NCBI RefSeq assembly: GCF_020034665.1
Contig: NZ_JAIQDI010000002.1
Location: 1,674,001-1,738,000 of the forward strand
Reading direction: 5' to 3'
Source: Niabella beijingensis
Lineage (GTDB): Bacteria; Bacteroidota; Bacteroidia; Chitinophagales; Chitinophagaceae
DNA: 64,000 nucleotides
The notes under the pieces are model-generated. The model made no database searches. It was given only the letters and a program-made list of their open reading frames with translations, and was not told where the DNA came from. A program made the translations under genes and the position numbers. Below, piece by piece: positions 17,880-24,713 of the stretch (its first letter is position 1; each line of letters starts with the position of its first letter).

Positions 17880-18125
17880 TCAGGGTTTTAATTCTTCGCA
17901 TTTGGTAATGACAAGCCGGCCGGGCCGGCAATCAATTTCGACCACATCGCGATCCCTGAAGCCGAAATCTGTAAGCGTATCGCCCGCCAGCCAAATGATG
18001 GGTGCTTCGGTAGTGCCGCCGCCCCAGCATTGAAACGTTTCGCTGCATACCATCATCCGCTTTATAATGCGGATGCATGGTGGCAATTGTTTTGGTGTTT
18101 TCATATAGCCTGATTTTTCATACAA
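17880..18125 (-). CDS. SymE-like (AbrB-fold) toxin family protein
   Basis: 81 residues. The C-terminal half, PIIWLAGDTLTDFGFRDRDVVEIDCRPGRLVIT, follows the SymE pattern (I-x-L-x-G-x-x-L-x-x-x-G-F-x-x-G/D-x-x-V-x-V-x-x-x-x-G-x-L-V-I-T). SymE of E. coli is an SOS-linked toxin of a type I toxin-antitoxin pair with an AbrB-like fold. No antisense RNA could be recognised here. A second start, Met8 at 18104, is possible. It is divergent from the XRE regulator gene, about 135 bases apart, at the front of the reverse transcriptase module. Confidence 0.6.
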   Translation of the reverse strand: MYEKSGYMKTPKQLPPCIRIIKRMMVCSETFQCWGGGTTEAPIIWLAGDTLTDFGFRDRDVVEIDCRPGRLVITKCEELKP

Positions 18126-18231
18126 AGCAAGGTTGCCCGTTGGCCGTTTCCTACAACAGCACAGATGTATTTCACAAGAATTGATGTGTTTTTTACCTAA
18201 CTTTAGGCCGCTGTTTATGATACGAATAAAG

Positions 18232-18239
18232 TAAATTTG
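18232..18239 (+). promoter_or_regulatory. Bacteroidota -7 promoter element (TAAATTTG)
   Basis: A perfect TAnnTTTG box before the XRE regulator. Transcription would begin near 18245, making the ATG at 18244 unlikely as start and favouring 18262. The -33 region is weak. Confidence 0.55.
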
Positions 18240-18261
18240 CCCTATGACAACTTATAAAACT

Positions 18262-18672
18262 ATGCCAAACAATAAAATACATGAAGGCCGCAATGTGAAA
18301 CGTTTCCGCGAAATGCTGGGTATAAAACAGGATGCTCTTGCCGCCGACCTGGGCGATGACTGGAACCAGCAACGCGTATCCCTGCTGGAGCAGAAGGAAA
18401 CCATTGACACTTCCCTGCTGCAACAAATTTCTGCCATACTGAAAGTGCCTGTAGAGGCTATCCAGAATTTTGATGAAGAGCAGGCGGTGAATGTGATTGC
18501 GAATACAATTAATAATAATGACAATAGTTCGTTCTTTAATCAAGGCACGATAAATATTAATCCTATAGAGGAAATTAAGAAACTACACGAAGAGAAGATG
18601 GCGCTTTATGAACGAATGCTGAAGGAGAAGGATGAAATGATGGCGAGGTTGGAGAAGTTGATCAATAAATAG
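18262..18672 (+). CDS. XRE-family helix-turn-helix regulator
   Basis: 136 residues. The N-terminal XRE HTH reads GRNVKRFREMLGIKQDALAADLGDDWNQQRVSLLEQKETID, ending with IPVEAIQNFDE-like helix V (KVPVEAIQNF). The tail has an N-rich linker and a charged coiled coil (EEIKKLHEEKMALYERMLKEKDEMMARLEKLINK) that likely gives dimerisation. This architecture is frequent in Bacteroidota accessory regions. It lies directly before the reverse transcriptase gene (175 bases apart) and may regulate it, but its GC content is nearer the chromosome average. An ATG at 18244 is an alternative start. Confidence 0.8.
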   Translation: MPNNKIHEGRNVKRFREMLGIKQDALAADLGDDWNQQRVSLLEQKETIDTSLLQQISAILKVPVEAIQNFDEEQAVNVIANTINNNDNSSFFNQGTININPIEEIKKLHEEKMALYERMLKEKDEMMARLEKLINK

Positions 18673-18719
18673 TTTTAGGGCGTGCCCCCTGCCCTACCAG
18701 CGCACAACATCAGTACACG

Positions 18720-18757
18720 GCCGGGGTCGGGCTATCCGCTATATCTTTTGCTCTGCT
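18720..18757 (+). repeat. Dispersed repeat block A (inverted relative to 24472-24509)
   Basis: These 38 bases match the reverse complement of 24472-24509 with three mismatches; the core GGGCTATCCGCTATATCTTT is identical. The two copies face each other around the 5.7-kb region holding the RT, nuclease, GNAT, AraC, DUF6273 and SDR genes. Confidence 0.8.
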
Positions 18758-18847
18758 ACGCTTATGACTTCTCAATTAGTAATTCACTTCTGCAAATACC
18801 AAAACGTATCATTGTTTCAAATACTAGGAGCGTTAAAATTTATATGA

Positions 18848-20443
18848 ATGAGAGAAAATTTTAGAAAAGCCCTTCTTAATATTATAAAACATGGAGACAC
18901 AGATATCTTTCCATTCCCCTTTGAAAGGTATTTGTTTAGCGATAAACTTAACGAGATCTTAGATTTATTAGAAGTCTATCATGCGAATTTGGAGCAAACA
19001 CTTAGTCAATCTCCCCCACTTACTCTGGTTAAATTAAGCCAAGTAGGTTACTATGGTTTTAGGCAAGCAACCATGATAGAACCTTTTTGGAATGCTTATT
19101 TCCTTGGCTTGGTTATTTCGCTGGCCAATAGCATTGAACAGACAAGAATTAATGAGTCTGAAAACAGAATTTTTTCTTATCGTTTTGGATGGGATGAGGA
19201 CAATGGCACCCTTTTTAAGGATACCACCTGGAATGATTATAAGATGCAGTGTATAGAAAATTCAAAGTCTTATAATTTTGTTCTTCAAACGGATATTTCA
19301 AATTTTTATCCAAGGATAAATCATCATAAATTAGAAAATGAGTTAAAGCGGGTAGACACAACAACAGATATTCCTAAAAGAATAATTAAGTTGTTAAGCG
19401 TTTTTTCAGGCACTATTTCCTACGGTCTTCCAGTTGGTGGGCCTGCATCGAGAATACTGGCCGAATTGGCACTAAATCATACAGACTTTCACTTGCGATC
19501 TAGAGGAATAACTTTTTGTAGATATGCTGATGATTATACTATTTTTTGCGACGATGAATCGGAAGCTTACAAAATTCTCATTCTTCTCTCGGAAAAACTT
19601 TCTAATGATCAATTGGGACTACAAAAAGATAAGACCAAGATTATGTCGTCAGAAGAATTTAGAGAAATCAACAGGTTTCTTGATCCAAAACCGACTAATG
19701 ACACTAGTGCCGAAGAAGAACAGAAATTATTGAATATATCTATAAGGTTTGATCCATATTCTGCTACGGCAGTTGAAGATTATGATGCATTGAAAGAAGC
19801 GGTTAAAGAAATTGATATAGTAGGCATTTTGTCAAGAGAGGTTAATAAAACTCGTATTGATCAAACTGTTACAAAGCAGGCAATCAATGCGACTAAAGTG
19901 CTTTCTAAAGCAAATCAGGTACAAGCAGTAAGCATTCTCCTCGATCATAACAATCTTGTAACGCTTTCTCCTGTATTTACTTCAATTATGCGAGCAGTAA
20001 GAAGCATATATGAAGACCTTAACGACGATGGGAAAGAACTTGTGGATAAATCTTTATTAGAACTTTTCGGTAGTCAAAGCTATCTGACTAAAATCGAAAT
20101 GAATTTAAATTACATCGTTCAAATACTTTCATTAAGATATTCGTCTGAGAAAGAGGCATTGTTTATCAAGCTTTTTGAAACTCAGACCAACCACTTACTA
20201 AAGAGGCAAATTATTATTGCAATGGCCAATTGGACTTGCCATTATTGGTTAGTGGATATAAAAAATCAATTTACAACTTTAACTACTTGGGAAAGACGCG
20301 CTGTTATTTACGCCTCATATTTCTTGGGTGATGAGGGCAAGCATTGGAGGACACATAATAAGAGCTTGTTTAGTAGAGAAGAGCACATTATTAGAGATTG
20401 GAGCGAATGGAGAAAGCAACAGAATTCCCTTATACTTGTATGA
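18848..20443 (+). CDS. UG/Abi-type reverse transcriptase (candidate anti-phage RT)
   Basis: 531 residues. RT motifs: LQTDISNFYPRINHHKL with Asp149 (motif A), GLPVGGPASRILAELALN (motif B, 193-210) and CRYADDYTIF with catalytic Tyr-Ala-Asp228-Asp229 (motif C), then LGLQKDKTKI. It lacks group II intron maturase domains, the retron VTG motif and DGR features; motif B and length fit the unknown-group/Abi RTs. Residues about 300-531 are helical and repeat-like, as in the AbiA/AbiK-type RTs with helical-repeat C termini, known for phage defence. The gene is AT-rich relative to its neighbours. Its stop overlaps the start of the nuclease-like gene (ATGA). Confidence 0.9.
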   Translation: MRENFRKALLNIIKHGDTDIFPFPFERYLFSDKLNEILDLLEVYHANLEQTLSQSPPLTLVKLSQVGYYGFRQATMIEPFWNAYFLGLVISLANSIEQTRINESENRIFSYRFGWDEDNGTLFKDTTWNDYKMQCIENSKSYNFVLQTDISNFYPRINHHKLENELKRVDTTTDIPKRIIKLLSVFSGTISYGLPVGGPASRILAELALNHTDFHLRSRGITFCRYADDYTIFCDDESEAYKILILLSEKLSNDQLGLQKDKTKIMSSEEFREINRFLDPKPTNDTSAEEEQKLLNISIRFDPYSATAVEDYDALKEAVKEIDIVGILSREVNKTRIDQTVTKQAINATKVLSKANQVQAVSILLDHNNLVTLSPVFTSIMRAVRSIYEDLNDDGKELVDKSLLELFGSQSYLTKIEMNLNYIVQILSLRYSSEKEALFIKLFETQTNHLLKRQIIIAMANWTCHYWLVDIKNQFTTLTTWERRAVIYASYFLGDEGKHWRTHNKSLFSREEHIIRDWSEWRKQQNSLILV

Positions 20444-21174
20444 TAAGCGAAAGAGACATAGCAGAAAAATTTACGACAATTTGGAAACGAAGCTTTCCAA
20501 TACTTACACCCAATTTTATGCGGGTTTTTAACGAGGCGCAAATAGAAGCAATTAATTCAAACCCAGCAGTAACTATTGACGATGATATAAGATACGACCT
20601 GGTCTCAGAGGTATCGTTTAATCTTTCTCAAATAGTAATTGAAAGAAGTGTAGAAGCTGTTGACTATTTATCTGACGATAATAACGTAATGGAGTTGCTA
20701 AGAAAAACAGCTAAATTTATTTGGAAATCTAAAAATTATTCCGATGATAATTTAGTTCTGACAAATGCAGAAACTAAGGATATTGTAAATATTACAAATA
20801 ATACCGTCGAGTTTATTACTAAAACAAAAAGAGAATCTCTACAATTTAAGCCAACCCTCAAAGGGTATAATTTCATATCAGATTTAGAGGCAGATTTGCT
20901 CATTGACGATACTCTATATGAAGTAAAGACAGTTAACAGGAATTTTAAATCGACTGACCTAAAACAGCTTTTTATTTATTTAGCTCTCAGGCAAGTAAGT
21001 GAACATGGAGCATGGAAGTGGGCTGGTCTATATAACCCAAGGAAGGGGACCTATTGTAAGTTTAATGTAAATAGTTTGATATATAATCTATCAGGTGGAA
21101 ATACGCCTAATGAGGCATTTGAAAGTTTATTGGAAGGATTAGTTAGAGATATGGAACTGGATAGTACATTCTAG
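20440..21174 (+). CDS. PD-(D/E)XK nuclease-like partner of the reverse transcriptase
   Basis: 244 residues. The C-terminal half contains EADLLIDDTLYEVKTVNR: Asp152 followed by Glu161-x-Lys163, the PD-(D/E)XK signature, and then a helix with Gln176 (STDLKQLFIYLALR), as in RecB-like nucleases where a Q-containing helix follows. The N-terminal 140 residues are helical and unrecognised. The start codon overlaps the RT stop as ATGA, so translation is coupled; the longer frame from 20398 would use a non-ATG codon inside the RT gene. It is as AT-rich as the RT. It probably cuts or processes nucleic acid made or sensed by the RT (inference). Confidence 0.75.
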   Translation: MISERDIAEKFTTIWKRSFPILTPNFMRVFNEAQIEAINSNPAVTIDDDIRYDLVSEVSFNLSQIVIERSVEAVDYLSDDNNVMELLRKTAKFIWKSKNYSDDNLVLTNAETKDIVNITNNTVEFITKTKRESLQFKPTLKGYNFISDLEADLLIDDTLYEVKTVNRNFKSTDLKQLFIYLALRQVSEHGAWKWAGLYNPRKGTYCKFNVNSLIYNLSGGNTPNEAFESLLEGLVRDMELDSTF

Positions 21175-21191
21175 TTTCGCCGTTGTTGGTG

Positions 21192-21264
21192 CCGCCCCTT
21201 ACCGGGGACACGCCCAAACCCTGAAAAATACCATCGGCAAGCGCTAAGCCCCTACCCTTGCGGG
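21192..21264 (+). repeat. Dispersed repeat block B, copy 1
   Basis: 73 bases aligned without gaps to 24552-24624 (about 61 identical), including an uninterrupted ACCGGGGACACGCCCAAACC core continuing into CTGAAAA. It begins 18 bases after the nuclease gene stop. The rest of the 260-base gap to the GNAT gene shows no gene. Confidence 0.85.
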
Positions 21265-21434
21265 TTTTAAAGGGTTGGCTATTGTAGCACAACGCAAAAT
21301 TATAATGCAGAACGGGCTTTACTTCACAGGCTGCATTGCCCGGTTGCCGGCTGCAATGCGGCGAATTGCGTATATTTATGTTTGGTGGCCGGGGCTGTAA
21401 TGGCCTTAAATTTTAATAAGCCACATACGAAAGC

Positions 21435-21980
21435 ATGGTAAACAGAACTTTTACACCTTTTCCAATTTTAAGAACGGAAAGGCTTAGCCTCCGGCAACTG
21501 GTAATTAATGACGAGCAGGAAATTTTTGCTTTGCGTTCTGATAGTGAAATAAATAAATACCTGGACAGGCAGGCAAGCCATACTGTTGATGATGCAAGGA
21601 ATTTCATCAATAAGGTTAATGAGCATATTAATAATAATGAGGCTTTATACTGGGCAATAACTTTGCGTGATACAAACATATTGGTTGGGACAATTTGTCT
21701 TTTTGGCTTTTCAGATGAACATGACAGCTGTGAGATCGGCTATGAACTCCAGACAAACTTTCAGGGGCAGGGAATAATGAGGGAGGCTGCAGCAAAGGTT
21801 ATCGGCTATGCATTCCATACACTTAAGGTTCAAAAAATTGAAGCATTCTTGCATAAGGATAATCTGCGCTCTGTAAGACTGCTGGATAAATTTTTGTTTC
21901 AGCGATCAAACAAGCCTGATGAGGCAACACCTGAATTAATAGGTTACGAGCTGACCAATTCAATTGACAAGCCGAAATAA
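21435..21980 (+). CDS. GNAT family N-acetyltransferase (RimJ/RimL-like)
   Basis: 181 residues. It starts FPILRTERLSLRQL, the typical RimJ/RimL-type opening, followed by WAITLRDTNILVGTICL, the acetyl-CoA binding segment YELQTNFQGQGIMREAA (Q-G-x-G-x-x) and the C-terminal KVQKIEAFLHKDNLRSVRLLDKFLF. Members acetylate protein N termini, amino groups of small molecules or antibiotics; the target cannot be told here. It lies between repeat blocks in the accessory region, as if cargo. Confidence 0.9.
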   Translation: MVNRTFTPFPILRTERLSLRQLVINDEQEIFALRSDSEINKYLDRQASHTVDDARNFINKVNEHINNNEALYWAITLRDTNILVGTICLFGFSDEHDSCEIGYELQTNFQGQGIMREAAAKVIGYAFHTLKVQKIEAFLHKDNLRSVRLLDKFLFQRSNKPDEATPELIGYELTNSIDKPK

Positions 21981-22058
21981 AAAAATCGCCGGGCAAAAAA
22001 ACCTGGCCGTTAGCGGTCATGGTAAAGCGATGCACCATTAACCCTGAACAGACAAATT

Positions 22059-24421: not shown

Positions 24422-24471
24422 TTAAACAACGAACCGTCTGGCACCGATTGAAAACCCAAACGGTGGAGCGC

Positions 24472-24509
24472 AGCGGAGCAAAAGATATAGCGGATAGCCC
24501 GGCCCCGGT
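24472..24509 (-). repeat. Dispersed repeat block A, copy 2 (inverted)
   Basis: Reverse complement of 18720-18757 with three mismatches. It lies 50 bases after the SDR gene, beside block B copy 2. The remaining intergenic sequence to 24713 has no gene. Confidence 0.8.
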
Positions 24510-24551: not shown

Positions 24552-24624
24552 CCGCCCATTACCGGGGACACGCCCAAACCCTGAAAACTGCAATCGGTAA
24601 ACGATAAGCTGCCATCCTTGCGGG
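24552..24624 (+). repeat. Dispersed repeat block B, copy 2
   Basis: Gap-free direct copy of 21192-21264 at an offset of exactly 3360 bases. Together the two copies bracket the GNAT-AraC-DUF6273-SDR set. Confidence 0.85.
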
Positions 24625-24713
24625 AGGTAAAGGCATCAGGAAGAGTGTTTTGCTTCAATGGATTTTGGACAACCCCTGCCCTTCGGGTAAATAATCAATC
24701 ACGGTTGCGCCTC

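Follow-up and report, generated by a model that had tools for sequence, protein, structure and literature searches.

The stretch of DNA considered here, 64,000 nucleotides of a Niabella beijingensis contig (NZ_JAIQDI010000002.1, positions 1,674,001 to 1,738,000; hereafter the window), carries two overlapping genes, one for a UG/Abi-type reverse transcriptase (RT) and one for a PD-(D/E)XK protein that resembles exonucleases such as RecB, MGME1 and Cas4. Judged by their sequences, the two almost certainly constitute a DRT8 anti-phage system (DRT, defence-associated reverse transcriptase), a type which we take to be the same as UG7. The best overall explanation of its action, to which a probability of roughly 0.4 may be given, is that the RT of this DRT8 system would make DNA without a template and that the nuclease would be an effector licensed by that DNA.

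No feature was found that sets the window's member apart within DRT8; the locus is one more representative of the type, and the interest that remains lies in the unsolved mechanism of DRT8. The locus bears on this open question because DRT8 has been listed as anti-phage with its mechanism not established, both in a 2026 commentary (PMC13213688) and in a 2026 review (PMC13314766). No paper on the mechanism of DRT8 was found in the open-access literature searched, subscription papers being mostly outside its scope. The comparison with other systems presented below leads to concrete tests, namely untemplated against RNA-templated synthesis, priming on the RT residue Y304, and the nuclease as reader against eraser of the DNA made.

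Assignment of the locus to DRT8

The RT matches the PADLOC model Drt8 with 537 bits (E 1.8e-161, residues 2-520), the runner-up being RT_UG21 with 131 bits, and its partner matches RTasPDDEXK with 212 bits (E 1.9e-63); both genes are covered nearly end to end by these models. The Drt8 model is matched by all 31 RT sequences scanned, that of the window among them, and in the whole assembly (6.6 Mb in three contigs) each of the two models finds a single match. In Pfam the RT matches RVT_1 only and the partner no family, and in NCBIfam no model is reached above the cut-off by either protein. The nearest relative bearing an organism name is the RT of Longitalea arenae, with 81% identity.

The PD-(D/E)XK domain has been given as characteristic of DRT8 in a 2025 paper (PMC12596737). 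A preliminary description of this DNA had suggested that the pair might be an undescribed one, which is not borne out: according to PADLOC and PMC12596737, the RT falls in a known DRT type having such a partner, and the pair is not novel because DRT8 is catalogued and already includes it. An undescribed RT-nuclease type is ruled out by the same matches and the same paper.

Table 1. Features of the DRT8 pair and of the gene upstream of it (positions in the window)
Feature	Position	Strand	Basis or conservation
DRT8 reverse transcriptase, 531 aa	18848..20443	+	PADLOC Drt8, AlphaFold2, fold comparison
Motif A aspartate D149	19292..19294	+	identical in 96/96
YADD box, residues 226-229	19523..19534	+	D228, D229 identical in 96/96
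Y304 in DPYS linker motif, candidate priming tyrosine	19757..19759	+	identical in 96/96
ATGA shared by RT stop and partner start	20440..20443	+	sequence; 4-bp NTGA overlap in 75/78 loci
RT-associated PD-(D/E)XK nuclease-like partner, 244 aa, from ATG 20440	20440..21174	+	PADLOC RTasPDDEXK, AlphaFold2, fold matches
Catalytic-type core D152 (20893), E161 (20920), K163 (20926), Q176 (20965)	20893..20967	+	identical in 79/79
XRE-type helix-turn-helix (HTH) gene, upstream of the pair	18244..18672	+	Pfam HTH_3; PADLOC HTH_VI (E 5.9e-8)

Constancy of the two-gene module

The contigs of GTDB were scanned with the RT alignment, and the best 80 of 157 relatives (L002-L081; best-segment RT identity 36-81%) were compared. 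A partner homologue was detected directly downstream of the RT with a hidden Markov model in 78 of them; tblastn located it in the remaining pair of loci, L003 and L040, in which the RT carries one in-frame stop. All 80 loci therefore have the two genes, intact or damaged, next to each other, which excludes chance, and no RT homologue without the partner occurs in this set. With the two loci carrying RT stops left out, a 4-bp overlap is present in 75 of 78 loci, of which 56 read ATGA, 14 GTGA and 5 TTGA, the loci without it being L026, L034 and L039.

Furthermore, the divergence of the RT between loci is matched by that of the partner (Pearson r 0.856, Spearman 0.546; best of 999 permutations 0.089), as has been found in the 76 loci left when L015 and L079, which reach contig ends, and L056 are also omitted. 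The partner is less conserved than the RT in all 2850 pairs of these loci. A search started from the side of the partner covered 395 genomes in the phylum to which the window belongs and was positive in 4, the window's own among them. The other three have the RT just upstream; one of them (L136) and L004 seem to be a single contig.

The reading of RT and nuclease-like protein as one defence module, already put forward in the preliminary description, is well supported, since the sequence evidence of the constant pairing, the overlap and the co-divergence (r = 0.86) is joined by the PD-(D/E)XK-type model of the partner, described below, and by the PADLOC defence models. The earlier observation that the two genes share an ATGA has likewise been confirmed, as has their richness in A+T: the G+C content is 0.349 for the RT and 0.332 for the partner, the whole window having 0.47, and only 108 of 61,674 stretches of the same length in the window lie below the value of the pair.

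Structure of the two proteins

The RT is made up of an RT domain (about residues 1-275), a linker loop (about 275-310) and a C-terminal helical repeat. The motifs recognised earlier in the first gene are present, with motif A reading QTDISNFY, motif B GLPVGGPASRILAE, and the YADD box contributing D228 and D229; these two and D149 of motif A are invariant. Such counts rest on 96 aligned RT sequences, the window's included, and the alignment for the RT model took in 27 of the 120 RT matches listed and 69 of 75 usable loci. The AlphaFold2 model (predicted local distance difference test score, pLDDT, 91.4) has helices from about residue 308 to 524, in agreement with the helical C-terminus previously suspected, and Y304 lies in the linker loop, the part of the RT model with the lowest pLDDT.

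The AlphaFold2 model of the partner (pLDDT 93.8), for which the alignment comprised P0002, 17 further partner matches listed and 72 of 75 usable loci, contains a PD-(D/E)XK core. The model and the fold matches place the residues of the D...ExK...Q pattern on this common core, E161 and K163 standing on strand 158-162 and Q176 in helix 171-186; the four positions are exactly those named in the preliminary description, and they are invariant among the 79 partners compared, the window's included. The nearest folds include AdnA, MGME1, AddAB chain A, Dna2 and lambda exonuclease; in the comparison by sequence, no solved structure was matched at E 0.001 or better. On the strength of the model, the partner has a RecB/MGME1/Cas4-like exonuclease fold and is a predicted nuclease. 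It differs from the nuclease domains of RecB/AdnA/AddAB, MGME1, Cas4/ACE1 and Dna2 in being a free-standing protein of 244 aa tied to an RT.

The nuclease core (partner residues 100-213; 20737-21078) also matches PDC-S61 of PADLOC (E 1.5e-8), a candidate defence family which, by its sequence, is possibly a relative of the partner in another system.

Proposed mechanism

With regard to the first step, the RT probably acts like the class 1 Abi/DRT enzymes, and would make single-stranded DNA (ssDNA) without an RNA template, priming the synthesis on a tyrosine of its own, most likely Y304 of the linker loop. The analogy is drawn from the architecture of the protein. Its model aligns over most of its length (385-462 residues) with AbiA and with DRT6, DRT4, AbiK and AbiP2, four enzymes that synthesise DNA untemplated and with protein priming, and with DRT9 and DRT2 over about 250 residues, in the RT domain only. 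The first five belong to class 1 and have the same RT and C-terminal helical (HEAT-like) domain as DRT8, class 1 having been described as an RT with a helical repeat and untemplated synthesis (PMC13174585). In AbiA, moreover, the priming tyrosines sit in the equivalent loop between RT and helical domain (PMC11077055), as Y304 does in DRT8. The separate nuclease gene distinguishes DRT8 both from DRT4, which has been described as a single-gene system (PMC13213688), and from AbiA, which has a HEPN domain instead.

In a second step, the nuclease would act together with, or on, the protein-linked DNA made by the RT. Perturbation of the complex by a phage would let this DNA license the nuclease, with the cutting of phage or cell DNA as the outcome. 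The effector role of the nuclease is drawn by analogy and stays tentative, its chances falling just short of even. In DRT1 (class 3), the RT's own DNA adducts have been reported to regulate the attached nitrilase effector (PMC13275509).

A close second to the effector reading, doubtful on present evidence, is that the system writes and erases: the RT would constantly make toxic untemplated ssDNA, which the partner would remove as an ssDNA exonuclease, and a phage that blocked the nuclease or coated the DNA would cause ssDNA to accumulate and the infection to be stopped. The exonucleases among the nearest folds of the partner favour such an eraser. Two host enzymes, RecBCD and ExoI, have been reported to limit what DRT3 and DRT9 produce (PMC13174585); a RecB-like fold would provide such control from within the operon. 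The ssDNA of DRT4 has been reported to turn toxic when its 3' end is shielded by a protein of the phage (PMC13213688). In addition, the nuclease core has never been lost beside an open RT in five damaged copies. Four of these combine a damaged RT with an open nuclease, owing to an in-frame stop (L003, L040), an IS3 insertion (L133) or a frameshift (L134), and in the fifth (L056) the RT is open and the nuclease ends after its catalytic core. However, five copies are few, two were chosen since their listing looked irregular, and the RT gene exceeds the nuclease gene more than twofold in length; the stops of L003 and L040, both in draft assemblies, could be errors. The surplus of copies with a damaged RT is too slight to count as evidence, and the damaged copies do not separate the effector from the eraser reading.

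The more specific proposal that DRT8 is a self-contained circuit of writing and erasing (or writing and reading), joining a tyrosine-primed untemplated writer of class 1 with a dedicated exonuclease, is rather unlikely. If it were true, the operon itself would supply the function which host RecBCD and ExoI are reported to have for DRT3 and DRT9, and the defence would be set off by a phage disabling or titrating the nuclease. A nuclease controlling the RT product within one operon would link the DRTs to the control which host nucleases are reported to exert on DRT3 and DRT9.

Search for a conserved RNA

It is improbable that the RT copies an RNA which escaped detection, a non-coding RNA (ncRNA) as in DRT2, DRT3, DRT9 and DRT10, with the nuclease processing the cDNA. 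Such a template would agree with the class 2 UG RTs studied to date, which use cis ncRNAs (PMC13174585). DRT8 shares the RT domain with the class 2 systems DRT2 and DRT9 and differs from them in its C-terminal part, which aligns with class 1, and in that the sequence comparison described next, with its small control, revealed no conserved flanking RNA.

The flanks (upstream, 600 nt) were compared at the level of sequence in 77 loci, L003, L040, L015 and L079 being left out, for pairs with RT identity of at least 50%. Upstream DNA is shared in just 4 of 399 pairs, amounting to a regulator gene common to the window and L006, an integrase gene common to L046 and L057, and stretches of 19 and 23 nt, and downstream DNA in 4 of 391 (18, 21 and 32 nt, besides 294 nt in L046 and L057). 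L024 and L025 have only 21 nt in common in spite of RTs that are 90% identical. No conserved flanking sign of a cis ncRNA beside the pair was thus found in these pairs, the control being small: among nine DRT2 loci (36 pairs, 400-nt flanks), upstream DNA is common to the three pairs with RT identity of at least 50%, over 399, 225 and 34 nt at identities of 94, 86 and 52%, and to none of the 33 pairs below 45%. These three informative pairs lean on two close ones, and the 34 nt of the 52% pair leave some room for a template RNA. The control loci came from a query (L131, itself part of the control) obtained, with a second locus that was not used (L132), in a DRT2 search of 369 genomes; a UG17 model tried before as ncRNA control gave one strong full-length match and was replaced by DRT2.

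Within the two genes, codon conservation has no clear peak in 12 loci (maxima 0.57 and 0.59, means 0.48 and 0.49, window standard deviation 0.05), and a scan of 18000-22000 against Rfam gave no match. Moreover, in some loci, such as L046 and L057, another open reading frame (ORF) ends at the RT start, which also speaks against a templating RNA. In our reading of these comparisons, the conserved unit consists of just the two genes, with a small probability left for an unseen RNA. The two Citrobacter loci L046 and L057 have about 294 nt downstream in common, with 71% identity, which are uncharacterised.

Finally, a retron-like restraint, in which the nuclease would be a standing toxin kept inactive by the RT, or by the DNA that it makes, for as long as no phage interferes with the complex, has in its favour the two-gene layout of RT and effector-like nuclease and the description of retron multicopy single-stranded DNA as an antitoxin (PMC13275509), but is highly improbable because the open nucleases beside damaged RTs (L133, L134 and, unless their stops are errors, L003 and L040) speak against a nuclease in need of restraint by the RT.

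Genomic context

The DRT8 pair is a horizontally spread two-gene unit. No third conserved gene recurs in the flanks of the 77 loci; the commonest flanking clusters, judged by eye, are tyrosine integrases, at 8 loci, and serine recombinases, at 5. Among 5426 E. coli genomes, 105 contain a match; every one of these is chromosomal and extends over 80% or more of the two-gene query. The three loci opened among the 105 (L130, L133 and L134) have the annotated order integrase, RT, nuclease, phage polarity suppression protein and ogr/Delta, and in each the RT start and the integrase gene end overlap by 8 bases; two of them run on into a primase-helicase gene, and one starts beside tRNA-Thr. These three loci, in which the pair lies between the integrase and the psu/Delta genes, are presumably P4-like satellites. 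More distant matches were found in viral contigs (17 loci, 27-36% identity over part of the query), which were excluded from all counts, and in three plasmid records (28-30% identity), which were unused in the analysis.

A review lists the effector Cap17 with DRT8 (PMC10952713); no dedicated search for Cap17 was made, and no recurrent third gene appeared in the 77 loci. No sign of a defence island around the window's pair was seen among the ORFs at about 14.3-24.4 kb: nine neighbours gave no PADLOC match, and the HTH gene matched HTH_VI and, at chance level, ZorA. Among the 77 loci compared, the HTH gene has a single homologue in front of the pair, in Flavobacterium supellecticarium (L006); it is perhaps a regulator travelling with the module in a few hosts. 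Further upstream, a small ORF of 81 aa (17880-18125, minus strand) has a match to the SymE toxin in Pfam below the cut-off (E 0.012).

The gaps on either side of the pair contain sequence of repeats dispersed in the genome (18673-18762 on the 5' side, 21192-21273 on the 3' side). The 5' repeat has 9 more partial copies in the genome, part of the 3' repeat recurs at 24552-24633, and repeat sequence is also present at 24467-24508; the DRT8 module may have landed among such dispersed repeats.
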